Below are positions 518-19,943 of a stretch of DNA of 23,828 bases, one piece after another. Within the stretch, counting starts at the first letter, position 1. Each line of letters opens with the position of its first letter. Below the pieces are notes generated by a model, which saw nothing but the letters and a program-made list of their open reading frames with translations, ran no database searches and was not told where the DNA came from. Made by a program: the position numbers and the translations under genes. Origin of the DNA: a virus; IMG/VR virus record IMGVR_UViG_3300012984_000280, positions 1-23,828 of that record. One strand, given 5' to 3'.

Positions 518-861
518 GGGATATCCTCCTGAACCGCGACCGCGGATAAAACCTGAGCTGTTGCGAGCTTCACTTGCAGCAGCGGCGCCTGTGCCTTCAG
601 CGGGGCAGCAAGCGCATTGACGACGGCCGGCAGCCCGAGCTGTGCAATCGCCACATCCGACACAAGCATGGAGGAATTGTCGGCTCGTAGCTCGCAGTAG
701 CTGCAACCTGGAACGGACTGGCCAAGCAGTATTCGCGCGGCCCAGTCTGGCGGAATATCGACGTGCAAACCTAGGCCTACATGATATCCGCGCACAGGCG
801 GGTCAACCGTGTTGCAAATATTAGCATCTAGCTGAATTGCCCCAGATTGAATCAGCTTCAT
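514..861 (-). CDS. 115-residue protein before the holin-like gene, function unknown
   Basis: Coupled to the fibre gene and to the next gene by ATGA overlaps. The first half (about 1-60) is mixed and contains three cysteines (N-I-C-N-T; G-C-S-Y-C-E-L). The second half is a long Ala/Leu/Val-rich helical stretch (V-A-I-A-Q-L-G-L-P-A-V-V-N-A-L). The N-terminal half shares the lower G+C and A/T-ending codons of the fibre gene, the rest does not, so a composition border falls inside this gene. It could be a fibre-assembly or a lysis-region protein; nothing specific is recognised. Confidence 0.6.
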   Translation of the reverse strand: MKLIQSGAIQLDANICNTVDPPVRGYHVGLGLHVDIPPDWAARILLGQSVPGCSYCELRADNSSMLVSDVAIAQLGLPAVVNALAAPLKAQAPLLQVKLATAQVLSAVAVQEDIP

Positions 862-1862
862 AGCTGCACAATCCCTTGAAAGTACTGCGAAACAGCAGAA
901 TCTACATCTGGGAAACTAGCCACTGCACCAGGCACCCAGGCAACCAATGCGATCTCTACGTTGGCAGGAAAAGCAATAGAAGCAACACCGCCGTAGCTCA
1001 TGTCAGAATCAGCCGAATTGCCTGCGTTAGTGCCCGTTACAGCAGCCGTCGATCCGACCTTGAGAGCATCGCTAGTCGATCCAGTCCAATTGACGATCGC
1101 CCGGTACCACTGATTTAAGGCTTTCCCGGCCTGCCCGTTAGCAAAAGCACCATTATTGTACATCGTAGGATCGTTTGCGTTGGTTGGATTTCCGAAACGC
1201 GAATAAAACGCATGCCCAGTGGATCCGCCGAACACACCCGCTTGTGTGCCCACAGTACCGGTCCAGCGAAATACGAGGTACGTAGAGTGCGGTGTTGTTG
1301 CCGGCGCCGGCAGTGCTAGCGTGGGCGACCTAAGATACGTTGAGCGGGAGGCTTCAAATGTCGCTGTTGTTCTTGTACCCAGCAGACCAAACAAAGGTTG
1401 AGCCGGAGCCGAAACCTGCAAAGCCGTCTTGTTGTTTGGTGATTGATCAGCAATGGCTGCGTACTTCAGTTTCCAGAAGTTTCCAGAAGTTGCCGCCCCG
1501 GCGTTAATCGTGAGCGTCACCCCGTCGCCAGCACCAGTGAGAACCAGCGTCCCAGTACTGATTCCAGACATGGCCGGTGTGCTGCCCAGGTCGTAATAGA
1601 TCTCGTACGTCCAAACACCCAGCGCGCCGCTCGATGTGGCTTTGACCCAGATCGGAACCGGCGGGCCCGTAAGACTACCCGCGGCAGTGATTACCGGACC
1701 AGCGCCGCCCACGTCATGTAGCGTGCCCGCGTACGTTGCACCTCGATCGAATTGCAGTACTTGATATGCTGCAGCGAAAGAGGGCAAGCCCGCGAAATTC
1801 CCATTGAACCGGTTCAGCGGGCTTGCTCGACGGTTCCCATGAACAGCTCGTCGAGCAATCAT
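858..1862 (-). CDS. Tail fibre or spike with LamG-like (lectin) C terminus
   Basis: A 334-residue protein starting at the ATG that overlaps the previous stop (TGATG). The first about 35 residues are basic and then beta-rich. Residues about 55-130 contain a strand-rich repeat-like domain (G-A-L-G-V-W-T-Y-E-I-Y-Y-D-L-G-S-T) common in phage tail proteins. From about 185 to the end the sequence reads like a concanavalin A/LamG sandwich (Y-L-V-F-R-W-T-G; N-Q-W-Y-R-A-I-V-N-W-T-G; V-E-I-A-L-V-A-W). Such domains bind surface sugars, so this is a receptor-binding candidate. Local G+C is low: 33, 29 and 27 of 60 bases at 901-960, 961-1020 and 1141-1200, against 39 of 60 at 17641-17700, which hints at exchange. 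A 10-bp tandem repeat lies inside. Confidence 0.6.
   Translation of the reverse strand: MIARRAVHGNRRASPLNRFNGNFAGLPSFAAAYQVLQFDRGATYAGTLHDVGGAGPVITAAGSLTGPPVPIWVKATSSGALGVWTYEIYYDLGSTPAMSGISTGTLVLTGAGDGVTLTINAGAATSGNFWKLKYAAIADQSPNNKTALQVSAPAQPLFGLLGTRTTATFEASRSTYLRSPTLALPAPATTPHSTYLVFRWTGTVGTQAGVFGGSTGHAFYSRFGNPTNANDPTMYNNGAFANGQAGKALNQWYRAIVNWTGSTSDALKVGSTAAVTGTNAGNSADSDMSYGGVASIAFPANVEIALVAWVPGAVASFPDVDSAVSQYFQGIVQL
1471..1490. repeat. Two-copy 10-bp tandem repeat in the fibre gene
   Basis: The unit ttccagaagt occurs twice in direct succession. Loss of one unit would move the reading frame and meet a TGA stop a few codons on. Two copies only; it may be chance or a minor slippage site. Confidence 0.6.
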
Positions 1863-2278
1863 CAGCCGTCTCGCCCCGCGTTATTGCCGAGGCGTCCGCT
1901 CCACTTGGTGACCTCGAGAGACGTGGGCGCACCGGTGGACGCGCGCGCAAGGTACACAGTCTCGCTTGGTCCAGCCGTAGGCACGAGCACCTGCACGAGC
2001 TCACCTGCCGGTAGCAGCGCCCCTCGCTGCGAACTCAGACCACCAGTAGCGCTCGCAGCAACTGCAGGATCGATCGTTGCCCCGCTGTTCTTGGTGAAGA
2101 AGTAGCGCGAGTCAGCACCGACACTGCGCAGGCCGACGAATTCGCCATACCAGCCCACCGGAATAGGGTCGACGCGACCGCTTCCTGAACCTGCACCGGT
2201 CGCTACCGTGTAGCCGGCGGTGTCGGTCTGATTGGTGCCGTCGCCGAAGCATCCCTTTACGTCGTTTGCTCTGTCCAT
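1862..2278 (-). CDS. Small beta-rich virion protein, function unknown
   Basis: A 138-residue protein coupled on both sides by TGATG overlaps. It opens with M-D-R-A-N-D-V-K-G-C-F-G-D-G and then alternates Gly/Ser/Thr loops with strands (P-V-G-W-Y-G-E-F-V-G-L-R; E-L-V-Q-V-L-V-P-T-A-G). The layout suits a single beta-sandwich. Position before the lectin-like fibre gene suggests a fibre adaptor or a minor tail or capsid protein. No catalytic or membrane motif. Confidence 0.6.
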   Translation of the reverse strand: MDRANDVKGCFGDGTNQTDTAGYTVATGAGSGSGRVDPIPVGWYGEFVGLRSVGADSRYFFTKNSGATIDPAVAASATGGLSSQRGALLPAGELVQVLVPTAGPSETVYLARASTGAPTSLEVTKWSGRLGNNAGRDG

Positions 2279-5184
2279 CAGGTGTCCTGCTGTTGCGCGC
2301 TTGGTAAGCGCATGGAATTGGTGGCCTTGGTCGCGTCGATGCTGCTCTGCGGCGCAGGCTGCACCGGACGATCGCTCTGCTGTGTTTCGCCCGTCTTCTG
2401 CATGTCGGCGAACGTCTGCTGAATCGCCGCCACGTTCTTCGGCTCAAGCGACGAATCGCCAATGAACCCAAACGCCGTCGAGAGGAAGATGGTCTGCTGA
2501 TACGGCAGGTCTTCTTCACGCTCGGCAACGAAGTCAGCGACCTTGCTGCGCAGTGCTTGGAACGTCTTCGGATAGAACTGCTGCACAGCGGCTAACGCAT
2601 CTCGGTCGAGTTCTCCGCGCCCCAAGTCCGCGATCACTGCACGCGGATTCACGGCGCCGCGAACGGTAGCCAAGTAGGTGCGCATCGCGGTCGGCGGCAC
2701 CATCGGCTTCACTGAGCGAGGCGTGAGCGACTTTGCGGGCGAGTTCGCAGCTGGCGGGATCGCCTGCGCCAAGTGCTGATAGATGTCGAGCAGCTTGCGA
2801 CTCGCGGCGCTGCCCACATCGGGGTATTGCGCGCTCAAGCCCTCAACCGTTCCGGACACGTGCTGCCCAGCAATCTCCGGCGTAGCGAGCCTGCGCACTT
2901 GCTCAATCGTTTCATTGAACTGCTTGGCTAGCGCTGGAACCGCCGCGGGCGGGCGCGGCATGTCGTGGGCGCGGCCGGTCTCTACTGCGCGCGGTGAGGC
3001 TTCGAGAGCAGCAATCGAGCTCGCGGCTTCCGTCGTCTTTCCGGTCAGCTTTCGCGCCGTCGATTCGAGCGTGCCGCCCATCTCGGACGCGTCTCGGGCG
3101 AGAGCTGCGAGTGTCGCATTCCCGCGTGTGCGCATCAGGTTGTTCGCGAGCGCGGTCGCGCCGCCGTAGACGAGGCCGCCAAGGGTATGCCCCGATACGG
3201 CGGAAGCCAGAAACGCCGCAATACCAGTGCCGTGGTCGCTCGGGCTCAGTAGGCGATTGCCGTGGTTGATGGTCTTTTTGGCGACCTCACGCAGCGAGAG
3301 CATCGAGTGCAGCTGGCGGGTTAGCGTCTTGTAAGCGTTGGGGTCTTCGCCGAGCGCCGCCAGCGCTGACTCGGCCTTGCCATCCAAATACGTCTTGAGC
3401 TCGCGCTCCATTTTCTCCAGGTACGCAGCGGCTTTCGGCGGCTGCGGCGGGATGCCGCCTGCGCTGCCTGCGCGTGGCTGGAACACGTCGCGCAGACGCT
3501 CTTGCCAGTCTTTGAGCGCGAGGAATCCGGTGCGCTCAGGCGGCAGCGGCGGAGCGACCTCGCGAACCGCGCGAATGTCAGGGCCGGCCTTGGTCAAAGC
3601 GATCGGCATCACCTCATCAGAGACCGCGTTCCCCTCTCTGTCGAAATGGATAACTCGCGCATCGATACTCGTTTCGCCGCGCTCAGCCGCAAGCAGCAGT
3701 CGATGTCTACCATCCCCAACCTGCGGACCGACGTCAGGCCAGACATCAATTCTAGGAGGCCCAAGCCGGTTTCCGGTTTCCGGATGCGCGCGCAGATGCT
3801 CGAAAGAGCTTTCCCGAAGCCCCCGCCGATTGATGGCATCGGCATTCACCTCGATCGTCGGGGCTTGCGCGGCACCCTCAATTTCAACCGGCTCGAGCAA
3901 ATACCCAAGCTGCTTGTCGACCGCGCGAGCCTTGCCGCGATCGGGCCCGTTCTTTAGTGCCTTGTACCAGTCCGAAGACTTCACCTGCTCGACGAATTCG
4001 CGCGCGCTCGGCGCTGCCTTCTGTGCAGCTGGGTTGCTCTGCAGTGCGGAATCAATCTCGCTCATCACGCCGTTGCGCTTGGCGCCCACCTCTTCCACCG
4101 CGTGACTCAGCTTCGCGGCAATGTCGTCAACCTTGTCACCCTTGGCGATGAGCGGTTGCCCGGCGTGCTCGCCGGTTTGCATCGTGTAGTGGAGAGCATC
4201 CGTCGTCGCTTGCGGCGCGAACTTGTCGAGTTTGCGCAACTCCGCCTGTCCACCGATCGCACGCCCCGCGTGCTCCTTGGCGACCTTTTCGAGCGAGCCC
4301 TTCGAGCGCGTGAGCGCAGCTCCGCCAAGCTCGCCGATCGCGCCCAATGTCGCCCCAAGGCCAGCGCCGAGTAGCGCGCCGTGCCCGAGGCCTGAGACGA
4401 AGTTTTCGACCGTTTGGTCATGGTCTTCGAGCGCCTGGTCGCTGATTGCGCCCTGAGCGCCGTACAAGCCGCCCTCGACGGCTCCCTGCGCGCCGAGTTC
4501 GGCCGCCCGCTTCAGGGTCTTTGCGGCGACTCCTTTGCCGCCCAGCGATTCCAGGCCCCTAGCGACGCCACGCTCGACGATGCTTCCGGCACCGCTGATA
4601 GCTCGCGGAACCGTGCCCGCGGCCCGTCCTGTGGCGCGTAGCGCGGCCCCAAGCCCATCCGCTGCCTTGAGCGCACTTGCGGCTTCACCCGCTTCAAGCG
4701 CACCGGTACCAAGGGCGGCGCCTTCGGCCCCCGCGCCAGCGCCCCCAGAGAGCAGCAGGGGAGCAATTGCGCCGGCCACCTCGCCGACACCGCTGGAAAT
4801 GGGGTTCTGGCGCTTCAGCGCCCCGAGGGCGTTCGCCGTTTCGGAGCCACCCAGCGCGCGCGCCGCAACGTCGGAGCCGCCAAAGGTGAGGGTCCGCGCT
4901 GCACCGGCCGCCGCCGCCTTGGCCTCGTTGCCAAAGCCCTTGCCGTACTGCCGTTTCTCGTTGACTGCCGCGAGCTCGTCCGGGTTGACGATCCTAATTC
5001 CCGGGTGCGTCACGTCTGCGGCGTCAACGGTGATGAGCCGATCGCGGGCGTCACGCGCGAAGACGCGCTGTCCCTTCGCAAAGAAGGCTTTTCCAGCGGC
5101 TGCAGCTTCGGCGTACTGCTCCGGCGGGATGACCTTGCCGTCCTCCGTGTACGCTTGCGGCTGAACGAGTGCGGGCTCGGCCAT
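2278..5184 (-). CDS. Ejection-type protein with internal ParB/sulfiredoxin-like domain
   Basis: A 968-residue protein, third of the ejection-type set. Residues 85-290 are Gly/Ala-rich and hydrophobic in stretches (A-G-A-I-A-P-L-L-L-S-G-G-A-G; L-L-G-A-G-L-G-A-T-L-G), compatible with membrane insertion. Residues about 441-520 look like a ParB/sulfiredoxin-like fold: a strand with T-I-E-V, then P-P-R-I-D-V, then the signature V-G-D-G-R-H-R-L-L-L-A-A-E-R-G (489-503) and a closing strand. In this stretch AGA, CCT and ATT codons appear that are unusual for the gene. After it come a Pro-rich linker, helices, another hydrophobic patch (I-A-A-F-L-A-S-A-V-S, 655-664) and a Gln/Thr-rich end. No lytic transglycosylase motif is seen. 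ParB-like domains are known in polyvalent phage proteins delivered into hosts; whether this one is a nuclease is unknown. Overlaps neighbours as TAATG and TGATG. Confidence 0.65.
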   Translation of the reverse strand: MAEPALVQPQAYTEDGKVIPPEQYAEAAAAGKAFFAKGQRVFARDARDRLITVDAADVTHPGIRIVNPDELAAVNEKRQYGKGFGNEAKAAAAGAARTLTFGGSDVAARALGGSETANALGALKRQNPISSGVGEVAGAIAPLLLSGGAGAGAEGAALGTGALEAGEAASALKAADGLGAALRATGRAAGTVPRAISGAGSIVERGVARGLESLGGKGVAAKTLKRAAELGAQGAVEGGLYGAQGAISDQALEDHDQTVENFVSGLGHGALLGAGLGATLGAIGELGGAALTRSKGSLEKVAKEHAGRAIGGQAELRKLDKFAPQATTDALHYTMQTGEHAGQPLIAKGDKVDDIAAKLSHAVEEVGAKRNGVMSEIDSALQSNPAAQKAAPSAREFVEQVKSSDWYKALKNGPDRGKARAVDKQLGYLLEPVEIEGAAQAPTIEVNADAINRRGLRESSFEHLRAHPETGNRLGPPRIDVWPDVGPQVGDGRHRLLLAAERGETSIDARVIHFDREGNAVSDEVMPIALTKAGPDIRAVREVAPPLPPERTGFLALKDWQERLRDVFQPRAGSAGGIPPQPPKAAAYLEKMERELKTYLDGKAESALAALGEDPNAYKTLTRQLHSMLSLREVAKKTINHGNRLLSPSDHGTGIAAFLASAVSGHTLGGLVYGGATALANNLMRTRGNATLAALARDASEMGGTLESTARKLTGKTTEAASSIAALEASPRAVETGRAHDMPRPPAAVPALAKQFNETIEQVRRLATPEIAGQHVSGTVEGLSAQYPDVGSAASRKLLDIYQHLAQAIPPAANSPAKSLTPRSVKPMVPPTAMRTYLATVRGAVNPRAVIADLGRGELDRDALAAVQQFYPKTFQALRSKVADFVAEREEDLPYQQTIFLSTAFGFIGDSSLEPKNVAAIQQTFADMQKTGETQQSDRPVQPAPQSSIDATKATNSMRLPSAQQQDT

Positions 5185-7004
5185 TATTCGACCACCTCTT
5201 GCGCCGACTCAGGCACATCGCTGTCATCGGGTCCGGAATCGCCGGCACTTGGCGCGCCTCGTCCGAGCGATTCCTTGTTCGCCTTGATTTGGTCCTGCAT
5301 CTGGCGCTTGAGCTCGTTGAGCTTCGCTGCTGCGCCTGGTGAGCGGAAGAAGTGTTCGGGGTCGCCGACCATGCGCTCGATGTTCTGCTTGGTGGCTTCC
5401 TGGAACGTGGCGACGCCCATCGCGTCGTGAGCTTCGAACACCAGGCCGCCGAGCAGCGACTCAGCACGCGCGCGGTCATCGTCGCCCCAGGCGCGAGACG
5501 ATGCCGACGAGGTGAGCTGCTGCAGCCGATCGATTTTGCCGATCGCCTCATGCGCTGAGCGCACCACGCGCTGTGCCGCCGTCTTTTCCTTGGCGTTGCC
5601 TGCATAGCGCACGGAGCCGTCAGGGAAGCGCACAGCAAGAGGCGAATTGTCCGACGACGCCAGCGGCTTGCCGTGTACGTCGGTCTTCCCGTTGAGATAG
5701 TCCGAGGTCTGCTTGGCTTCGGCTGCCGCCTTGAGCCCGCGTAAGAAGCTGCCGCCACCGCCGCCCGCTGCGCGCTGCTGCAGCGTGTCTTCAACGGCCT
5801 TTTCGCCAGCCATCTGGATCGCCTGCGCCTTGAGCTGCTGCCGCTGAAGGGCGCCGGCCTGCAAGGCCTCCTGACCCTTCGCATAGGCGTCCGCGTTGCC
5901 GATTTGGTCCAGCTGGTTGGCTAGCATCGCATCGCGCACGGCGTAGGCTCGCGCGCGCATGTCGTTTTCGGCCATCTCGGGCGTGCCGTACAGCGCGAGG
6001 GCCTGTCCATATTGGTTGTCCGCTCGCGCTGCCGTGTCCTTCGATCGCTCATACTTTTCGCGCTCGGTTTGCATCCAGCGATCGATCGAGTCGTTCGCCA
6101 TCTTGAGCCCGACGTTTTCGCCGCCGCGCAGTCCCTGAACATAGCCGCCAAGCGCAATTGCGAGCCCGGTAGCAACCTGCGAAGCGACGCCGCGCTCGCC
6201 CCAATACCGATGCAGGTCTGGCGGGGGCATCGTCGCGACCTCTTGCTCGCGCTGGTCCCGCGTCGTTTGCAGCTGTTGCAAGCGCTCGTTGATGGCCTGA
6301 CGCTGCATGCGCTGGTCAATAACGTCATCCATTTGCCGCGTGAGTTCAGCGTCTCGGCGATCGGTCAGCTCCCTCGCGCTCGCGTTGTGCGTCTCCAGGT
6401 TCGCCGCTTGCGTTCTTTCGAGCTCGTTGCCACGTCGGTTGATGTCCGCGCTCAGTTCTTCCGGAACCGTGCCGTAAGTCGTATATTTCTCGGTGCGCTT
6501 GCCAAGTGCGAGACCTGGCTTTCCGCCACCGCCTCCACCGCGCACGGCCTCGCGAAACGCCAGTTCTTGCTCGGGCGTTAGCGTGAGTTCGCTGCCGCCT
6601 GCAGACTGTTCGCGCTCACCTCGTGGCGCCGAATGCGCAGCTAGTTCCGGGCCAGGTCCGCCGCTCGTTTCCCCTGGGAGAGGGACATCGAACTTGGATC
6701 GGTTCGCTGGCCCGGAATCGTGGGATTGCGGGGCGCGACTGAGCAAGTCGCGCAACACCCGTGCGTTTTCCTCTTGCGGTGTCCGCGGCGCGCCAAACAC
6801 GCCAGCGCCGCCACCAAGATCGCGCGGGTCCCCACTGCCGGGACCAGCCGCCGCGAGCGCTGACATTGCCGAGCGCTGGGCGTTCGCCGAAATCTCAGTG
6901 TGCCCCATCGCCTGTAGCTGCGCGGGTGACAACGCCATCGGCATCACCGTGCCATCAGGCAGATGCACGTCGGAGAGCCCATCAGCGCGGAGCGAATAGG
7001 CCAC
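5184..7004 (-). CDS. Ejection-type coiled-coil virion protein
   Basis: A 606-residue protein with a GTG start directly abutting the previous stop, and a stop overlapping the next start (TAATG). The first about 140 residues are Pro/Gly/Ser-rich and likely flexible. Residues about 180-255 and 300-410 are long charged coiled coils (R-R-D-A-E-L-T-R-Q-M-D-D-V-I-D-Q-R-M). Between them lies a hydrophobic stretch (A-T-G-L-A-I-A-L-G-G-Y-V, about 278-289) that could be a membrane-active segment. The C terminus is acidic (S-G-P-D-D-S-D-V-P-E-S). Size, place in a row of three large proteins after the nozzle, and the helix-hydrophobic-helix layout suit an internal protein ejected with DNA, like P22 gp7/gp20/gp16 or T7 gp14-gp16. 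No enzyme motif is seen. Confidence 0.55.
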   Translation of the reverse strand: MAYSLRADGLSDVHLPDGTVMPMALSPAQLQAMGHTEISANAQRSAMSALAAAGPGSGDPRDLGGGAGVFGAPRTPQEENARVLRDLLSRAPQSHDSGPANRSKFDVPLPGETSGGPGPELAAHSAPRGEREQSAGGSELTLTPEQELAFREAVRGGGGGGKPGLALGKRTEKYTTYGTVPEELSADINRRGNELERTQAANLETHNASARELTDRRDAELTRQMDDVIDQRMQRQAINERLQQLQTTRDQREQEVATMPPPDLHRYWGERGVASQVATGLAIALGGYVQGLRGGENVGLKMANDSIDRWMQTEREKYERSKDTAARADNQYGQALALYGTPEMAENDMRARAYAVRDAMLANQLDQIGNADAYAKGQEALQAGALQRQQLKAQAIQMAGEKAVEDTLQQRAAGGGGGSFLRGLKAAAEAKQTSDYLNGKTDVHGKPLASSDNSPLAVRFPDGSVRYAGNAKEKTAAQRVVRSAHEAIGKIDRLQQLTSSASSRAWGDDDRARAESLLGGLVFEAHDAMGVATFQEATKQNIERMVGDPEHFFRSPGAAAKLNELKRQMQDQIKANKESLGRGAPSAGDSGPDDSDVPESAQEVVE

Positions 7005-9824
7005 TCAGAACGCCCCCGGCTGCGCGTAGAGTGATCGGTCGTAGGCAGGCATCGGGCCAAGCCCTGAGCCCTGTAGCGCGGCCAGTTGCCGCTCGAGATC
7101 CTGCATCTTCTTTTGCTGCTCGCTCAGCGCCGCCGTGTTCACCATCGTGAGCGCGGGCGTGTCGACCACCTTTCCGCGCGGCGTGTCGCGCACAGCGTTC
7201 GCCGCTGCCGTGAGCTCCAAGTCTTGAGCCATCGGCCCCACGTGGCGGCCCGGGGCTGCACCTGGCGCTCCGGGGTCCTTGTATTCGTACGAATAGCCCT
7301 GCGCTGGACGAAGGTCGACGGCGGGCGCCTGCTGCTCGCGAGCGTAAGCGGCATCGAGTGCAGTGGTGTCAGGCGCGCGCAGTTGAAGCGCAGGCGAGAA
7401 TTGCTCGCCATCCCAAGTACCGCCATCGTTTGCGTTCTGCGAGTACTGCGACTCGACGGAAAACGTTGGATGTCCATGCTGCTTGTACGTGTCAGGGAAG
7501 TGGCCCGAGTCTGCGCCGCGACCGACGCCACCCAAGTACGCGCCGCGGTAGTCGTAGTGGCTATCAGGATTGTCCAGGTCACGAACGCGGTTCTGTTTGA
7601 GCCACTGCGCGAATCCAGCTTCCTGCGAGGGGGTGAGGCGCGTTGTTTCGCCATCACGAGGCGGAGCGTCGGCGCTCAGCGCCGCTAGCTGCGTCTCGAG
7701 CGCGCGGATACGCGTCTTGCTGCGCGCATCGGAAAGGCGCTGACCATTGCCGAAATAGCCGCCACTTTCTGTGTCATCGCCACGATTCATCGCTTGCGGC
7801 GCAGGCACGGCATAGGCCGAATCCTGCGCAGCGCCCGAGTAGTGCATTTGGCCTGATGCCGGAGTTGCGGAAGGGTTCGCGCCATTCAGGTAGGCAGCAA
7901 TGTTCGCTGGCAGCGCTGGCGCGTTGAACACGTCACCCCAAGCGGGAGCGGGCGCCGCGACCGGTTGCGGAGCGCTTGAAATCGTGACAGGCCGACCGCC
8001 GAGAAACGCAGCGGAAGGTGCCCCACCGATAGCAGGCGCTCCGCTCAGCATAGAACGCTGTGCGAGGATGTTTGGATTGACGAGCGCCATCGGTGATTCA
8101 GTTTGTGGGGCGCGCGCGCGTCCCTGAAAGGCGCCCTGGCCCAAATCCGAGGTCTTCCCAAGGGTCGACACAAGTGGCCGCGCTCCCGGCTTCGTTGACA
8201 ACGCCGCGATCACGGCATCCTGCGATGCGCTGTGGCCAGCTCCCGCTCCCGGCACCCGGTTGAGTACATCAGTGGGCGCGAACTGGCTCGGTCGGTACGC
8301 GTTGTTCAGCGCGGCGATGGTCTCGGCGTAGCCAGCAATCGGAGCCTGCGCTTCACCGGTGACGCCAATCTTTCCGAGGTCCTGATCGTCCATGGGCGCA
8401 TCGCCGTACGGGCGCAGTACGTTCGTCTTGCCGTTCGCGGTGTACGTGTCCGCGCCGCTGGCGGCCGCTTGGTCCGCAGCGCGGTAGGCGGCCGCTGCCT
8501 CTGGGCTGAATCCGGCGTACTTCTCGGCGTTCTTCGCATCAGTGGTCGGCGACGTGAGCCCGATCGGTTTGATGTTCTTCTTGTTGCGCTCGTCCGAAAG
8601 CCGATCGCTGCTGTTATTGCCCGGATTTCCCTGGCTAGACTGCGCTGCGTTGCTGGATGCCGTGATGTTGTAGTAGGGGCTATCTTTAGGGCTGGTCGAA
8701 GCGATGCCGGTGTCACCAGCTGGGGCAGCGGCGCCCCCATTTGAAGCATTTGCGACAGCATCCGCCGCAGCCCCGAACCCAGACGCGGCCATGTTCATGT
8801 TTGCGGCCTGATGCGCGTTCGCATTGTTCATGTTCGCGATGTTCGTCGCGGTCTGCGAACTCGCTTGCCCAAGGTTCGCGTTGAGCTGCGCCGTCTGCAT
8901 ATTCTGGCCTTGCTGCTGTCCGAACTGGTAGGCGTTCTGACCTTGCTGGTTGGCCTGCATGCCGAGCTGCTGCTGCTGCGCCCCGAGCTGGTTGTAGAGC
9001 CCCGTCGTCTGGTTGTTGATTTGCTGCTGGCTCTGCTGCAGCGCTGCGTTCTGCTGCTGCAGATTCTCGTTTCCGGCGCGCACCGTCGTGGCCTGATTGC
9101 CGGCTTGGCCCGCGAGATTGCCGGCGCTGCCGTACGCGTTCCCAGCGCCCTGGAGGGCTGCGAGCTGCATGTTCTGGTAGTTCTGCTGCTCTTGCAGGCG
9201 CGCGGCTGCAGCCTGCTGGTTCGTGGTCTGATTGATTTGCGCGTTGTTGAACGCAGCCTGATTCATCGCGGCCTGACCGCTGCCGAGCGAGCGCCCAGAG
9301 CGAGCAAGCGCCAGCTGCTGATTCATGGCGTCGCTTTGGCCAAGCCGCAGCTGAGCCTCAGCTACGCTCGGACCCATCGCGCGTGTGCCGATGTCGGTCA
9401 ACAGCCCGCCGGTACTGTTCAGATTGCCGATGCTGGCGTTCGTCGCGCCGAGCGCTGCGAGCTGGCGTTGCTGGTCAGCTGGGCTCGTTGCGATCTGTGC
9501 GGACGCGCGTCCCTGCGCAGCATTCGCAACATCGAAGTTCCCGTTGCCCTGATTGTAGAAGGCAGCTTCGCGCGCGTTCTGCGCTTGCTGCTGCTGCAGC
9601 CCCTCGCTGTACTGCATTGCAGCAAGCTGATTGGTCAGGTCCGCGCCATTGCCGCCGGCAAACTGCGCGGGTGGCGCTTGCGGTGCGGCGTTGTCGCCAC
9701 CTCCTCCGAGCATGCTCAAAAGGAAGCCGCCACCTGCGCCGATAGCGGTTCCCCACGGCCCAAAGGCTGAGCCCACTGCTGCACCGGTGCCTGCTCCTGC
9801 TGCTGCTTTGCCCCAATCGACCAT
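7005..9824 (-). CDS. Ejection-type virion protein with S74-like chaperone tail
   Basis: A 939-residue protein (ATG at 9824, overlapping the nozzle stop as TGATG; a GTG one codon upstream is possible). Residues 6-43 are a Gly/Ala zipper (A-A-V-G-S-A-F-G-P-W-G) able to insert in a membrane, as in podovirus ejection proteins. Residues 50-350 are Gln/Asn-rich; about half of residues 250-319 are Gln or Asn. Two copies of a serine motif, R-L-S-D-E-R-N-K-K-N-I (409-419) and R-L-S-D-A-R-S-K-T-R-I (697-707), match the catalytic start of peptidase S74 intramolecular chaperone domains. The later H-V-G-P-M-A-Q-D-L-E (861-870) matches the core of that domain. Between lies a small conserved-looking segment with D-Y-R-G and H-P-T-F-S. 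The tail is a helix with L-E-R-Q-L-A-A-L. S74 domains fold their trimer and may cut themselves off. Confidence 0.6.
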   Translation of the reverse strand: MVDWGKAAAGAGTGAAVGSAFGPWGTAIGAGGGFLLSMLGGGGDNAAPQAPPAQFAGGNGADLTNQLAAMQYSEGLQQQQAQNAREAAFYNQGNGNFDVANAAQGRASAQIATSPADQQRQLAALGATNASIGNLNSTGGLLTDIGTRAMGPSVAEAQLRLGQSDAMNQQLALARSGRSLGSGQAAMNQAAFNNAQINQTTNQQAAAARLQEQQNYQNMQLAALQGAGNAYGSAGNLAGQAGNQATTVRAGNENLQQQNAALQQSQQQINNQTTGLYNQLGAQQQQLGMQANQQGQNAYQFGQQQGQNMQTAQLNANLGQASSQTATNIANMNNANAHQAANMNMAASGFGAAADAVANASNGGAAAPAGDTGIASTSPKDSPYYNITASSNAAQSSQGNPGNNSSDRLSDERNKKNIKPIGLTSPTTDAKNAEKYAGFSPEAAAAYRAADQAAASGADTYTANGKTNVLRPYGDAPMDDQDLGKIGVTGEAQAPIAGYAETIAALNNAYRPSQFAPTDVLNRVPGAGAGHSASQDAVIAALSTKPGARPLVSTLGKTSDLGQGAFQGRARAPQTESPMALVNPNILAQRSMLSGAPAIGGAPSAAFLGGRPVTISSAPQPVAAPAPAWGDVFNAPALPANIAAYLNGANPSATPASGQMHYSGAAQDSAYAVPAPQAMNRGDDTESGGYFGNGQRLSDARSKTRIRALETQLAALSADAPPRDGETTRLTPSQEAGFAQWLKQNRVRDLDNPDSHYDYRGAYLGGVGRGADSGHFPDTYKQHGHPTFSVESQYSQNANDGGTWDGEQFSPALQLRAPDTTALDAAYAREQQAPAVDLRPAQGYSYEYKDPGAPGAAPGRHVGPMAQDLELTAAANAVRDTPRGKVVDTPALTMVNTAALSEQQKKMQDLERQLAALQGSGLGPMPAYDRSLYAQPGAF

Positions 9825-12800
9825 CACACAATCCGATCTGCGGGCTTGTTGAGCCGCGCGCCTTCCGGTGCACCATTTTCCAACGCGAGAGCTATCAGCG
9901 CGATTCCTTCAGCTGCACTGGTCTCAGAAATCGACACGCGAAGCGCGCTCAGTGAGCGTTGTTCGGTTGAGCCTAGGTCGGTGAGTATCGTGCTGAGCTC
10001 ACCTGGTAGGGTGTCTGGAGCGATTCCGGTGTAGACGCGGGTCGCGGTGTGAGCGACGCCGCGATCGCTCGTTTTGTCGACGGTAAGCGTACACACGTTT
10101 CGGAGCTCAAGCAGGGTCGATAGCCGCTGGACGCTGCCCTGTTCGGTCGGACCGAATGGGCGAATGTCGCCGGTGCGCACCATCATCGTGTAGGCCTGGG
10201 CGCCCGAGTCACCAAATAGACTATCCGTCAGCTTGATTGTCGTCCCGTCGGATTGGCTCGACGTGAACATCGCAATCTCGCCACCGTACCAATTGCCGAT
10301 TCCGTACTGAGCTGCCGGCGTCCCCAGCGAACCGGAGTCGGTGAGCAGGTCGACGCTCCAAACCTTGTGAACCAGGTCATACACGAGCTGCGCACCCTGA
10401 TTGCTCGCATTCACGCAGACCCAGCGCACGGTTTGCTCTGTCGACTTCACGAGCGCCGCGACGCCACAAATGGTCGGATAGGTGGCGAGCGTGTCGAGTA
10501 CGGCGTCGACCGCGATCGGTGTGCCGAACCCGCGAGGCAGCAGGTACAAGCCGCGTGCAGTCTGAAAAAACACGCCGTCATCACACGCGTACACGCTACG
10601 CGGCTCGATGCATCCGAGCTGAAATGGCAAACGAACAAGTGGCCCGAAGTCACCTACGCCGGCATCATCGGGGCCATCCCCACTAGCGACGTAGATGCCC
10701 TCGGCAGTGAACAGCACGAGCGAGTCACACCAGGCGAGCCCGGCACACGCGCTTGGAAGCAAGATGCGAAACCCGTCATTGTCGGCGAATGACGGGGACT
10801 GGTCGCCGAAGATTAATTTTGACGCCTGCACTACGTCCGGGCGAATCAGCCCACCGAGAAACAGCCTGCCTCCGCCCGAGCAGCCAAAGCGCGACGCGGG
10901 CGGGAATGCATTTGGCAGCGTCTGCCCAACCTGCGTGTACAAGGTTTGCTGCGTGGACAGCGTGGTGTCAGAGAGCTGGTCAACGTAGGTGACGGTGCCG
11001 CCGAACAGGTCCGCGTCGACGATCGCCGCCAAGTAAAACGTCTTGTCATCGTGTAGCGTGCGGTAGACTTCGATCGAAACTACGACCCGCTGAGTAGAGC
11101 AGAGCGAGGTGATTGCGAGCGTGTTTTGCGTCTGTCCGACAGCCATCGTGACCTTCACCGGCGGCGATGGGGCCGAGACCTCGAAACGCCCGTTGGCGGC
11201 ACGAGCCTTGAAAACAGTGGAGTAGTAGTACTCGGACGAGGCGGTGAGCGACCCTCCGCCAGCCGGCGTAATCGACTGTATTGCGGGCGAGTGAACGAAT
11301 CCCTCCTCAACCGCTCCTGTCGCATCAACCCGCGTCAGGTTCCCGCACGGAACGAAGCTGCTACGGTCCGCAAACACGGATTGCAGCGACCGATTCCGCG
11401 CACTGTCCGTGTAGTGCTTCGCCTGCAAGACGCGGAAGTCGTGCCCAGTGACAATGCTGGAGCCAACGGCATAGAGCGTCGGCGTCGGCACCGCATATGA
11501 TGCCGTTGCCGCGATCTGAGTCACCGCCGGAACGCCCTTCAGGTCGACCACTGCGGAAGAAAGCAGCAAGTCTTGAACCGACATTTCAATAGGAGCAACA
11601 CAGGATGTGCTGCCCGCAAATGCGGTCGAGAGCTGCAGCAGCGTGGCGTAGCGCGAGCCACTTGCGATCGTGTCGATCGCTGTCCAGAGATATACGCCCG
11701 GCCCAGCAAAGAACGGCACAGATATCGGGTAAAAACCGGCCTGAGTGATTGTGAGCCCGAGCGCTGCCAGCGCCGACACATCGGAGTACTTGAAGCTCGC
11801 TGGGTTAGGCGAGCCGCTCACAACAGAGCTGTGCACGGCTCGCACCCCGCCGGCCGGAACGGGACTCAACAACGGGCGCGATGCATCTGTCGTCGTGAGC
11901 GTGACGGTTCCAACCACGCCGCCGCCGAATCCCGTGGTGTACACCTTCACCTTGGCAGTCGTGCCAACGGTCATCGCATAGCCCAGGTAGACGGGTGTGG
12001 TGGTTGAGCCGACGATGCTTGTCGACGTGACCGGGTTTGCCTCGACGAAGGTGTTTACGCCGGCCTGCGCGAGTGCCGTGTTTAGCGTGCCGACGGTAAC
12101 CTGATTGCCGCCGTAGCTGATGGCGAACAGGCAAGCGGTTGATGTGTACTGGTAGACATCAAAGGAAAGAATGCCGGCGCCAGTGATGACGACTTCGCCG
12201 CCAAAGAAGCTGCCGACGGTCATCGTGCGGCCGCGCAGCGTTGTGGAGTTCGCGTCGAAGTAAACGAGCGCCAGCGTCGTTCCGATGAGGACGAGGCGCG
12301 GGTATTGGATGCCGCCGCCGCCCGCCACGCCAGCCGCATACTCGAACACGTTCACCAGCGTTTGCCCGCTGACATCGGTTGCAGCGATTCGGATCAGCTT
12401 GTCCGTCGGGTTCGCTGGGTCCGTGTATTGGTACGCAGTCCACAAGCATCCGAATGCGTAGCAACTGGAGCAAGGCGTGGTGGTCTGGTTCTTCAGCGAC
12501 TTGGAAGGCACCGGGAAGAACGAAGTCTCAGGCAGCCATCCGCTGACTGCGCCCGCAATGCGCCGCGACACTGAGCCGCCGGTTACTGCACTGACAGCAT
12601 CCGTGTTCGCAGGCAGAACGTAGCCGATGCCGGTCGCTGACCGCGCATAGGTGAAGCATCGGTCCGCAACGATCGCGAACGCCGTATCCGTCGAGCTACC
12701 AACGCAGCGCGGAGGCCCCGATGTCACACCGGAAAAGCCGCTAGCGATGCTAGTGCCGTAGCCGAAGCGCTTGCCGATTCGGCCCGACTTGCGCATGCGC

Positions 12801-12910
12801 GCGTTTTGCAGGTACGAGAGCTGCGGGAGTGGCAGAACTGCGCGCTCGATGCCCTCGTTTTGCCCCTGCTCGAAGACAGCTGCGGTGAGCTTCACCTTCG
12901 GATCGCCCAT
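9824..12910 (-). CDS. Large nozzle/stabilisation-like tail protein
   Basis: A 1028-residue protein starting at the ATG that overlaps the previous stop (TAATG); five further in-frame codons upstream from a TTG are not favoured. The N terminus (L-P-Q-L-S-Y-L-Q-N-A-R-M-R-K-S-G, then K-R-F-G-Y-G-T) matches the opening of podovirus nozzle and stabilisation proteins: a strand, then N-A-x-M, then a K-R-x-G-Y turn. The long middle is entirely strands with repeated G-x-Y and V-Y-x patterns, suiting a beta-propeller. Around residues 700-820 it has F-G-D-Q-S-P-S-F-A-D-N-D-G-F and L-V-L-F-T-A-E-G-I-Y-V-A-S-G-D-G, typical of these propeller repeats. It would close the head and guide DNA out. It is longer than T7 gp12; named by type, not by close match. 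Confidence 0.6.
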   Translation of the reverse strand: MGDPKVKLTAAVFEQGQNEGIERAVLPLPQLSYLQNARMRKSGRIGKRFGYGTSIASGFSGVTSGPPRCVGSSTDTAFAIVADRCFTYARSATGIGYVLPANTDAVSAVTGGSVSRRIAGAVSGWLPETSFFPVPSKSLKNQTTTPCSSCYAFGCLWTAYQYTDPANPTDKLIRIAATDVSGQTLVNVFEYAAGVAGGGGIQYPRLVLIGTTLALVYFDANSTTLRGRTMTVGSFFGGEVVITGAGILSFDVYQYTSTACLFAISYGGNQVTVGTLNTALAQAGVNTFVEANPVTSTSIVGSTTTPVYLGYAMTVGTTAKVKVYTTGFGGGVVGTVTLTTTDASRPLLSPVPAGGVRAVHSSVVSGSPNPASFKYSDVSALAALGLTITQAGFYPISVPFFAGPGVYLWTAIDTIASGSRYATLLQLSTAFAGSTSCVAPIEMSVQDLLLSSAVVDLKGVPAVTQIAATASYAVPTPTLYAVGSSIVTGHDFRVLQAKHYTDSARNRSLQSVFADRSSFVPCGNLTRVDATGAVEEGFVHSPAIQSITPAGGGSLTASSEYYYSTVFKARAANGRFEVSAPSPPVKVTMAVGQTQNTLAITSLCSTQRVVVSIEVYRTLHDDKTFYLAAIVDADLFGGTVTYVDQLSDTTLSTQQTLYTQVGQTLPNAFPPASRFGCSGGGRLFLGGLIRPDVVQASKLIFGDQSPSFADNDGFRILLPSACAGLAWCDSLVLFTAEGIYVASGDGPDDAGVGDFGPLVRLPFQLGCIEPRSVYACDDGVFFQTARGLYLLPRGFGTPIAVDAVLDTLATYPTICGVAALVKSTEQTVRWVCVNASNQGAQLVYDLVHKVWSVDLLTDSGSLGTPAAQYGIGNWYGGEIAMFTSSQSDGTTIKLTDSLFGDSGAQAYTMMVRTGDIRPFGPTEQGSVQRLSTLLELRNVCTLTVDKTSDRGVAHTATRVYTGIAPDTLPGELSTILTDLGSTEQRSLSALRVSISETSAAEGIALIALALENGAPEGARLNKPADRIV

Positions 12911-13335
12911 TAGCTCGCCCACCAATTCGCGCCGTCGTAGTAGATGGCGAATAGCCCGACCGTGCCCGCTCCGTAAGCCTTGCTGGCCGCGCCGTTGATG
13001 AGTCGCGCCGCATTGTTGGCCATGCCCGACGGGCGCACCGTGACCGTGTTCGTCGTGGCGCGCTTGGCGATCCAGAGAAACCCTGGTTTGCCATCAGCGG
13101 GAGCTGATAGAGCAAAGGCGATATTGCCAGTCGACAGATCGCACAGCGCGATTTGCCGAGTGGTAAGCGTCTTGTCGACGCTAGTTTGCGGCGTGAATCG
13201 CACCTGTTGCGGCTGCGCCACCATGCCATCGAACAGCGCAGCAAGCTCGGTAGCTACGTTCTGTTCGAACTGCGAAAGCTGCTGCTCGAGGCGGCGAGCG
13301 TTGTCGGTGATGAATTGTTTGATGAGTGAAAGCAT
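12910..13335 (-). CDS. Coiled-coil protein with fibre-tip-like C terminus
   Basis: A 141-residue protein starting at the ATG that overlaps the adaptor stop (TGATG); the longer open frame upstream is a shadow of the adaptor gene. Residues 1-36 are a helix with heptad-like spacing (I-K-Q-F-I-T-D-N-A-R-R-L-E-Q-Q-L). The C-terminal about 90 residues are beta-rich and end in Y-D-G-A-N-W-W-A-S. The motif T-V-R-P-S-G followed by a final D-G-x-N-W is common at the ends of phage fibre and spike proteins. It could be a small trimeric fibre, a tail plug or a needle-like part. Placement between adaptor and nozzle favours a tail-tip or tail-side structure. Role inferred. Confidence 0.55.
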   Translation of the reverse strand: MLSLIKQFITDNARRLEQQLSQFEQNVATELAALFDGMVAQPQQVRFTPQTSVDKTLTTRQIALCDLSTGNIAFALSAPADGKPGFLWIAKRATTNTVTVRPSGMANNAARLINGAASKAYGAGTVGLFAIYYDGANWWAS

Positions 13336-17685: not shown

Positions 17686-19668
17686 TCACTGCATCGGGGC
17701 GCCCATGGCGGGCGCGGGCATCGGTTGGGGTTGCACAGGCGCAGGAGGCGCCATGTTTGGCGCGGCAAGGCCAGGGTTTGCGCTCTGCTGCGTGATTTGT
17801 GACGCGGTTGCCTGCGCTTGGCTCAAGGCCTGAGCTCGAAGCGCTGCCGCCACGTCGATGTCTTTCTCGAACTTGATTAGCCGCTCGATTTTCTCCGGCG
17901 GTTCCCGGTCGGCTTCGAGCCGATTGAGCCGGCGCACCGTGAGGCGCTTCGCGAGGTCGAGATCCATGTACGGAGTCGGCATCAGCTCGGCGGTGTACGC
18001 TTTGGCCTTACAGATATCGTCCAGCCGCTGCTCGATGTTTCGCTCCGGCGCAAGCGTGTCGCCGAGTAGCGCTTCCGAGTCCGGATTGTCCATGTTGGAC
18101 AGGGCCTGCTCTTTGGTGACAAGGCCCTCTTTCATCCACTCGATCTGCTGCTCGGCGCGCGCGGCCGGGTCGGTGGCGAAAAGATTGGTCGGTCGGCAAC
18201 GCAGCTTGAACTGGTCTGCCTTCAAATCGATCTCGGTGAACTTCACGCGCCGCAAATCCTTGTCGTTACCGAGCATCACCTCGTAGTCCGGGCTGTGCTC
18301 AGCAAGTACGCGTGCGCAACGCATGAGATTCTTCGCGCCGCCGGTGTGAAAGCGCTCCCAACTGCGGAACTCAAGCGTGTGGCGCACGTTCTCACGGTCC
18401 TGCAGATGGCGCATGGGCGGCGCGCTTGTGATGCCCTGGGGGCGCGCGGCCTGCATGCTCAGGTCACTGAGGCCAACCTGGTCGCGTCCGTCTGCACGGA
18501 GCTGCGCGTTGCGCTGAAAGAGCTCCGGTGGCACGCCCGGGCTCTGCAGGTACTGCATCGCTTGAGCTGGCGGGACCTTGCTCTCCAAGATGTTTGCCAG
18601 TTCGTTCGTGATTCGCGCGGGCATGATGCCGGCGTTCTTCCACGTGACAAGCATCGGGCGCGCGTGGCGGTCGATGATCCGGTCAATGCGCTCATCCCAC
18701 CGATTCATGGTGAGCTGCACCGGCGCCAGAATCTCTGGCAGACCTCGCGACCAGAATTGCCCAGGCACCAAGTAGGGTCGAAACCACGACTGCGGAAAGA
18801 AGTCGTACGGCCATGGCGACTCCGTGAGCACGAACCCGTCTTCGAGTGTGCAGATGTGGCGCCCGTCGTGATTCGGCGCTGTCTTGCGGCCATCCTTTTC
18901 GCCCTTGCCCCACGCGCGCGGGTCTTCGAGGTCGACGCGACCGCTCGGCAGGTGCCAGGCCTTATAAATCACCACCATGTCGCTGATGGTGCCGTCGCGA
19001 TAGGTGTCGTGGTCGGCATCCTCCGGCTTCACTGGCGCCTGGTCCTTGATGCGTTGGATCACATCCTTCGATGCGTCGGCGTAAAACGCGAGCAGTTCGC
19101 CACGGTCGACGGTGACACGCGAGAAATGCTGCTTGGGGCGACGCGATCGCGCCTCACGCTTTGGAACGAAGTGCTCCCACGGCTCGCACTTGGTGGCGAT
19201 GATCCGGTTGTTCGCGATGTCCGCGTCCCACTCGACGCCGCCGCCCTCAAAGAGCATGCCGTAGGTGCAGACCTCGGCGCCCAGGTCGCCGTAAATCTCT
19301 TCCTCCTCGAACTCCCCTTCGATGAAGTCCTGGTAATTCTGGGCGCGTTCGCGCAGCTCGGAGTCGCCGCGCTTCGTCACGAACAGCGGGCGCACGCGGT
19401 TCTGCACAAGCTGATTGATGAGCGTGTTCGCCGTGGCCTGAATCAGGTTGTACGCCGCCGCGTCCTGCAGAATCGAGTCGATGACGGTAAGAATCGACGC
19501 CGCACCGCTGAGCGAATACTTCATCGAGCCGGCGTAGAGCGCGAGGGCGAGGTTTGCGATCTCGCGTCGCTGCCGGCCCTCTTGCTCCCAATACGTCGAG
19601 ACGATGGTCGAGATGGTCGTGCCGGCGTCTTCGGTGTCCTTGCGGAACCAAGCTGAATCATAGGCCAT
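17686..19668 (-). CDS. Portal protein (head-tail connector ring)
   Basis: A 660-residue protein. The start at 19668 overlaps the preceding stop; a 14-residue longer frame is not favoured. Portals form the dodecameric ring through which DNA enters and leaves. Evidence is size, position between terminase and scaffold, and the family-like layout: an N-terminal helical section (T-I-V-S-T-Y-W-E-Q-E-G-R), a wing rich in Glu, the core with F-V-P-K-R-E-A-R-S-R-R and M-N-R-W-D-E-R-I-D-R-I, and a long C-terminal helix. The last about 45 residues are low-complexity Pro, Ala, Gln and Met, which may be a disordered tail. It is longer than typical siphovirus portals and fits large podovirus (P22-like) ones. 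The scaffold gene follows after six bases. Confidence 0.8.
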   Translation of the reverse strand: MAYDSAWFRKDTEDAGTTISTIVSTYWEQEGRQRREIANLALALYAGSMKYSLSGAASILTVIDSILQDAAAYNLIQATANTLINQLVQNRVRPLFVTKRGDSELRERAQNYQDFIEGEFEEEEIYGDLGAEVCTYGMLFEGGGVEWDADIANNRIIATKCEPWEHFVPKREARSRRPKQHFSRVTVDRGELLAFYADASKDVIQRIKDQAPVKPEDADHDTYRDGTISDMVVIYKAWHLPSGRVDLEDPRAWGKGEKDGRKTAPNHDGRHICTLEDGFVLTESPWPYDFFPQSWFRPYLVPGQFWSRGLPEILAPVQLTMNRWDERIDRIIDRHARPMLVTWKNAGIMPARITNELANILESKVPPAQAMQYLQSPGVPPELFQRNAQLRADGRDQVGLSDLSMQAARPQGITSAPPMRHLQDRENVRHTLEFRSWERFHTGGAKNLMRCARVLAEHSPDYEVMLGNDKDLRRVKFTEIDLKADQFKLRCRPTNLFATDPAARAEQQIEWMKEGLVTKEQALSNMDNPDSEALLGDTLAPERNIEQRLDDICKAKAYTAELMPTPYMDLDLAKRLTVRRLNRLEADREPPEKIERLIKFEKDIDVAAALRAQALSQAQATASQITQQSANPGLAAPNMAPPAPVQPQPMPAPAMGAPMQ

Positions 19669-19943
19669 TACGTCTTCACTCCAAGCTGGCTGAGTCCGTG
19701 GCGCTCGCACAAATGCGGAGCGAAGTGGAAGCCAGCGCGCTCCTGGCAGCCGGCGTAGGCGCAGGTTCCAGCTGGCTTCGTTTCGGCTTCCGGCTCGAAG
19801 TCGAGAGCAGGCGCGGGGATGGTGTCGCCCACCGGCTCGAGCTCAATCTCCAGCACACCATGCGCCTCAGCCTGCGAAGGGCTGAGCACTACGCGACGGA
19901 CTCCCGCAAGCCGCATGCTGGCAACGATGCTCTCCATGCTCAC
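19668..19943 (-). CDS. Small protein with C-terminal zinc-finger motif
   Basis: A 91-residue protein with a GTG start that overlaps the previous stop as GTGA; an ATG two codons later is an alternative. Residues 1-37 form a likely beta-alpha segment. An acidic, Pro-rich linker (about 38-58) follows. The C terminus carries Cys61-x4-Cys66-x12-Cys79-x2-His82, a plausible single zinc site. The stop overlaps the portal start (TAATG). It is the second zinc-binding candidate in the small-gene cassette between terminase and portal. A DNA- or portal-binding accessory role is possible; I know no named family for it. Confidence 0.65.
   Translation of the reverse strand: MSMESIVASMRLAGVRRVVLSPSQAEAHGVLEIELEPVGDTIPAPALDFEPEAETKPAGTCAYAGCQERAGFHFAPHLCERHGLSQLGVKT

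Follow-up and report, generated by a model that had tools for sequence, protein, structure and literature searches.

A ParB/sulfiredoxin-fold domain as putative exchangeable cargo of a podovirus ejection protein

The window considered here, that is, the whole stretch of DNA that was analysed, coincides with an entire IMG/VR record of 23,828 bases, in which podovirus-type late genes are clustered on the minus strand and in which a portal and a major head protein are matched by PHROGs. As relatives, designated below by the letter L and a number, are 37-41 kb in length, this record is probably a fragment. The minus-strand genes of interest lie at 9824-12925, 7005-9827, 5184-7004, and 2278-5184, an order that is identical in L008. 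The gene at 2278-5184 encodes a 968-aa ejection-type protein in what is a gp16-like position, i.e., the third of three large proteins, with a tail/nozzle gene preceding and a fibre coming after, and it is syntenic with same-order genes of L002, L003, and L008. It is this protein that carries the domain under study. Cysteine is absent from all four of the proteins checked, including from the whole of the 968-aa protein.

A tblastn search of 50,697 phage records with the portal protein of the window (17686-19710, minus strand) gave no match at 1e-5, and the podovirus lineage thus seems to be without a cultured relative in that collection. A neighbouring gene (7005-9827, minus strand) encodes a Gln/Ala-rich ejection-type protein with a match to Peptidase_S74, i.e., the chaperone of endosialidase, near its C-terminus (E 4e-8). 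An SDxRxKxxI motif is present in two copies in that neighbour (411 and 699) and in three in its L008 equivalent (861-3302). Repeated S74-type motifs within an ejection-type protein look unusual.

From synteny and layout, the 968-aa protein would be a gp16-like ejection protein, one that is packaged in the head and ejected ahead of the DNA. PHROG 342, a T7-type internal virion protein family, matches two of the relatives, weakly (P0006 at E 9e-5 and L014 at E 0.0015), and does not match the window protein. Hydrophobic blocks of the window protein span residues 127-294 and 652-681. The former includes Gly/Ala-rich block 1 (residues 127-164; 4693-4806, minus strand) and Gly/Ala-rich block 2 (residues 258-294; 4303-4413, minus strand), both before the domain, while the latter is block 3 (residues 652-681; 3142-3231, minus strand), to its C-side. 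The preliminary description of this locus, made from the sequence without database searches, had placed the domain between Gly/Ala-rich, membrane-type regions, and that placement holds not just here but also in L002, L003, L018, L008, and L021, the domain always lying between blocks found on both sides. With L030 an N-terminal hydrophobic block alone is seen. For T7 gp16, the equivalent portion has been assigned to the cytoplasm of the host (PMC8954989). When residues 323-652 were modelled (pLDDT 70, from nine sequences), the result consisted of helices, a low-confidence linker, an alpha+beta domain, a second low-confidence linker, and then helices again. VIA comparison of this 330-residue model returned generic long-helix matches only (F1 gamma, flagellin, SMC hinge; Z of 5.3 or less), which were discarded as evidence.

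The domain itself, of what is described here as type B, covers approximately residues 442-531 (3592-3861, minus strand), as judged by profile, AlphaFold2 model, and structure comparison. This is slightly beyond the residues 441-515 previously proposed, which do correspond exactly to window positions 3640-3864 on the minus strand. Within that interval are located, as had been described, a P-P-R-I-D-V strand (residues 476-481; 3742-3759, minus strand), of which one proline is nearly invariant among 17 relatives, and, C-side of it, the stretch VGDGRHRLLLAAERG (residues 489-503; 3676-3720, minus strand). The latter forms, in the model, the end of strand 2 plus the start of a helix, and includes a GxxR phosphate-binding, or P, motif (as defined in PMC12704722). 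To the N-side is a junction (residues 432-441; 3862-3891, minus strand), with identity to L002, the nearest relative, ending just after residue 431 (...DKQLGYLLE). To the C-side is a linker (residues 532-552; 3529-3591, minus strand) which is low-confidence in the model, with identity to L002 resuming at residue 553 (GFLxLKDWQExLR).

The earlier suggestion of a ParB/sulfiredoxin (Srx) fold is supported by modelling. An AlphaFold2 model of the domain, built from an alignment of 17 family sequences, has a pLDDT of 84 and a pTM of 0.69, with strands at model residues 39-43 and 47-52, a helix at 54-62, and further strands at 67-75 and 81-92. The GxxR P motif, G492-R-H-R495, which is preceded by D491, falls at model residues 53-56, i.e., at the strand-helix junction. 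In VIA comparison of this model the first 29 rows all are members of the ParB/Srx superfamily, with Z from 5.3 to 3.1 (sulfiredoxins 5.3, Noc 4.7, ParB 4.5, SbnI 4.0, and PadC along with free serine kinase 3.9), while the highest unrelated row has a Z of 2.6. It is the uniformity of that list which gives the result its weight, as Z values under 8 are modest by themselves.

Membership of the domain in a wider family was addressed using two motif-based scans of a viral collection along with profile scoring, giving 17 members. A profile made without the window scores the window domain at 53 bits (E 6e-16). L036, L037, and L040, chance matches of the motif scan which served as a negative control, score 15 bits. 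Invariant across the 17 diverse members are the DGRHRL core as well as model residues A60 and G64, though as some members were retrieved via the DGRHRL motif the invariance of that core is partly built in. L033, L035, and L039, too, were found through the motif, which is a bias, but with the 13-residue motif masked a type-B profile of those three still gives the window domain 19.5 bits (E 1e-5), as compared with a best of 2.3 over 300 shuffles, while the all-family profile, similarly masked, drops to background (7.7 versus 7.8 bits). Scores above background and shuffles indicate a similarity of the domain that exceeds chance. PHROG 1033 (ParB-like) is matched by 10 of the 17 members, at best with E 8e-7, and by the window domain alone weakly, at E 0.038.

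More general searches recover little. Pfam, NCBIfam, and PHROGs give no significant match with either the window protein or its domain, nor does PF02195 reach the domain, and tblastn of protein or domain against the 50,697 phage records and against plasmids returns nothing significant. Standard annotation therefore would overlook the domain. The same tblastn with relatives of the window protein also yields nothing significant, the best being Bacillus phage G gp284 (‘ParB-like nuclease’) at E 0.2. A profile search of genome contigs found none with type A and, with type B, a Streptomyces ParB-type regulator only, and a single-protein scan using the window domain as query found no match. In a PDB sequence search with the profile only ankyrin repeats outscore ParB, a result set aside as a chance DGRxxL similarity. 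Pfam's ddrB-ParB is matched by 0 of 17 members at E of 1 or less, and the extra, DdrB-type helix, which bears a conserved tyrosine and precedes the final strand, is absent from the model, in which strands 67-75 and 81-92 are directly consecutive.

Sulfiredoxin activity was rejected since the catalytic cysteine of GCHR is absent, the motif being GRHR in what is a cysteine-free protein. Rejected as well was a canonical ParB CTPase clamp: An ENxxR clamp motif is not found anywhere in the 968-aa protein, nor is there a Pfam match, hence none to an HTH or to a C-terminal dimerisation domain. With the GxxR motif present, and with both the sulfiredoxin cysteine and the ParB clamp motif absent, NTP binding would be the most likely activity.

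The domain-encoding DNA differs from the rest of its gene in codon use, as the preliminary description had noticed and had taken to mean that the domain may have been acquired later. The deviation is real. GC3 is 0.60 for codons 441-531 versus 0.75 for the remainder of the gene, a value reached in 0.1% of draws when synonymous codons are resampled from that remainder (P = 0.001), and for codons 441-515 alone the equivalent P is 0.0002. All three of the gene's AGA codons are found within the domain (478, 493, and 516), as compared with seven in total across 12 long genes, and the CCT-CCT and ATT-GAT pairs previously pointed to are present at codons 476-477 and 479-480, respectively. Codon 426 is the start of the gene's lowest-CAI stretch. 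Upon sliding-window analysis the domain again is low, but less extremely so, with 2-6% of plain windows equally low. The codon signal thus is genuine but not spectacular. The equivalent domains in L002, L003, and L008 display codon use that is close to that of their own genes.

What had been acquired, and when, is better seen through comparison with relatives. The window protein and that of L002 are 74-78% identical overall, with the backbone 83% identical but the domain, at the same site, just 31%; the flanks of the domain are 83% identical on one side and 85% on the other. Opposite discrepancies are seen as well: L003 and L008 have backbones that are 27% identical versus domains, at differing sites, that are 69% identical, and with L002 and L018 these values are 31% and 66%. 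L003 and L018, however, have diverged equally in backbone (58%) and domain (57%), and differences in rate therefore cannot explain the other pairs. The version of the domain that is present in L002 occurs at the same place in L003, L004, and L018, the backbones of which are just 31-37% identical to that of L002. In trees, the window and L002 are sisters for the backbone at 100/100, while for the domain that sisterhood is rejected (AU p = 0.007), with the window domain placed instead, on long branches, with L033, L035, and L039. As its long branch joins to another long branch, the exact nearest relative of the window domain would seem to be unsure.

The event in the window therefore looks like a recent replacement of one version of the domain by another, and not like a first acquisition. 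That is, ‘acquired later’ would be correct to the extent that the replacement is late, but a ParB-like domain is found already at this site in L002, L003, L004, and L018, and the domains of L002 and L003, which are the two of these four that were measured, lack deviant codons. A separate observation is that L003 and L004 share, at gene positions 457-1715, an identical tract of 1258 nt, with 60 differences elsewhere in the gene, which suggests recent recombination; as the tract is not domain-specific, identity of these two within the domain was dropped as an argument.

A swap as seen in one record also could be an artefact, i.e., a chimera of two phages generated in the course of metagenome assembly. 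The record is indeed a metagenome contig and is the single known copy of this domain version. Both borders nonetheless are exact as to frame and site, the flanks on either side belong to the same lineage, and L002, L003, L008, and L014 independently show the same kind of exchange, all of which makes the chimera a highly improbable explanation.

Comparison of the gene with and without the segment, as had been proposed, is possible in the L008 group. In L008 the domain is found at residues 264-384, while the flanks of the site that is used in the window match L008 residues 449-537 (E 2e-14) plus 539-653 (E 2e-5), i.e., uninterruptedly. In L014, which is 97% identical to L008, as well as in L015 and L016 (94%) and L017 (74%), a short linker is found in place of the domain. 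This group thus displays presence/absence of the domain along with a second site, a pattern that either gain or loss would fit. Taken across relatives, sequence comparison shows the domain to be an accessory module, one which a few lineages of phages have acquired or lost, shifted in position, and exchanged for another version.

These same comparisons bear on the idea of the domain as a functional element in the machinery of DNA entry, e.g., an NTP-controlled clamp or gate around incoming DNA, as akin to the ParB CTP clamp. ParB and Noc are among the structural matches, T7 gp16-C is a DNA binder for which clamping of the genome has been suggested (PMC8954989), and the window domain occupies the corresponding segment. 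An essential gate, however, would tolerate neither its absence from L008-group proteins which are 94-97% identical nor a shifting of site between lineages. The missing ENxxR motif along with the lack of an HTH or other Pfam match, as well as the domain's net acidic charge (15 D/E versus 11 K/R), also speak against this possibility, and a ParB-type clamp consequently is considered to be unlikely. At the other extreme, the domain could be an inert passenger, i.e., filler of sequence space in a tolerant loop which has spread via illegitimate recombination. The low-confidence linkers on both sides are as would be expected of a loop that tolerates insertion as well as loss. Filler should not, though, possess an invariant DGRHRL core (itself part of the search pattern for some members), invariant A60 and G64, and that nearly invariant proline, nor turn up again both within virion proteins of unrelated kinds and as a gene by itself, and I view inertness as improbable.

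That recurrence can be described as follows. In five members of the family (L019, L020, L025, L026, and L035) the domain is fused to Phage_Mu_F (PF04233). In L034 (2514-6371) and L038 (7466-10993) it is found, along with a GNAT acetyltransferase, in polyvalent proteins of 1176-1286 aa, with that of L034 additionally possessing an ADP-ribosyltransferase (PF03496). L039, a 209-kb contig, has a stand-alone ParB-like frame of 105 aa (3262-3579), adjoining which is a reverse-strand frame (3576-4193) that by eye is 2H phosphoesterase-like. MuF and polyvalent proteins are considered to be carriers of injected effectors (PMC5512222), and the tie to injected phage proteins that the preliminary description had drawn is strengthened by finding the same domain in fusions of both kinds.

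Fusion to domains of toxin type would suit also a ParB-like nuclease effector, one that nicks or degrades host DNA upon entry. Nuclease activity has been reported for several ParB-like proteins and has been proposed for DdrB-ParB (PMC5512222). The founding claim of nuclease activity has been questioned (PMC3482391), however, and the domain, which is acidic overall, has beyond D491 no obvious metal-binding acidic cluster among the residues that are invariant over the 17 members, none of which is matched by Pfam's DdrB-ParB. A nuclease role thus is possible but is not favoured.

Favoured instead, with a probability of roughly 0.55, is that the domain is exchangeable effector cargo of a podovirus ejection protein, NTP-binding and likely anti-host, its function being putative. 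Under this reading, the carrier protein would exit the virion together with the DNA or ahead of it, and its middle, helical segment between the hydrophobic blocks would enter the host cytoplasm. The ParB/Srx-fold domain, per the models, would be tethered within that segment on flexible linkers, presumably acting on a host target during the first minutes of infection. Most likely, though as the most fragile of these steps, that target would be host defence or instead host nucleotide or nucleic-acid metabolism. In-frame gain or loss, movement, and swapping, i.e., the exchange that is observed among relatives, would then mark an arms-race component, as opposed to a part of the DNA conduit, with the replacement in the window having been recent enough that foreign codons may persist. 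That relatives differ in this manner points, by analogy to the T4 proteins Ip1-Ip3, to selection through host defences that vary. More speculatively, the middle segment might be a general ‘docking bay’ into which small effector domains are cassette-exchanged in frame, with the ParB-like one being NTP-dependent and aimed at host defence. Polymorphic effectors would in that case be brought into the cytoplasm by the DNA-entry machine itself, just as entry takes place.

Aspects of this system are known from others. A survey of phage proteins with the ParB-CTPase fold (PMC12704722), based on PF02195 plus TIGR models, describes fusions as well as stand-alone forms of about 100 aa, some of which bind CTP, ATP, or GTP. 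The fold and the GxxR P motif are common to these proteins and the window domain, but PF02195 misses the latter, and the main text of that survey does not mention MuF or virion proteins. The DdrB-like ParB of P1 DdrB (PMC5512222) likewise is a ParB/Srx domain within a large, head-packaged, late-gene protein that is thought to be injected, whereas the carrier in the window is a putative ejection protein of gp16 type and its domain is exchangeable at two sites. As with T7 gp16 and P22 gp16-type proteins (PMC8954989), the carrier is the last of the large ejection-type genes and has hydrophobic blocks around a helical middle, and swapping of lysozyme domains between ejection proteins is already known. 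The window protein differs in having no detectable sequence match to these proteins and in that the swapped item is a domain of nucleotide-binding type. T4 Ip1-Ip3 (PMC12373910) are injected proteins which vary between relatives, each blocking one specific restriction-enzyme subtype, and as such are a model for cargo variation. They are small, separate proteins, however, and no link to a ParB/Srx fold is described in PMC12373910. Lastly, the mosaic polyvalent proteins of jhp1044 type from H. pylori phages, with their PBECR domains (PMC5512222), are virion-linked orthologues that differ by domain exchange, though there the domain has an RNase fold and the carrier is different.

Phage proteins with ParB/Srx domains, polyvalent proteins that are injected, and ejection proteins that are mosaic therefore all are known already. 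What is new is the combination, i.e., a family undetected by Pfam which ejection proteins carry at either of two sites, and which is present in some and absent from others of a set of nearly identical proteins. In the open library searched, no paper was found that connects ParB in such a sense to ejection proteins or to internal proteins of the virion. If the favoured reading is true, then a podovirus ejection protein would be both conduit and carrier of interchangeable effectors, as also are MuF and polyvalent proteins. Proteins that share 97% identity yet differ in whether they possess the domain, along with the domain's two sites, represent a natural experiment, one that allows direct testing both of the portion of an ejection protein that enters the cytoplasm and of the role of an injected ParB-fold domain.

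As a further, minor observation, the ejection-like protein of L021 (12189-14591) possesses, directly N-side of its ParB-like domain, an unassigned block of about 90 residues (approximately 405-500, RPVRFYRVQPKGLGVLGHK...) which may be a second cargo domain.
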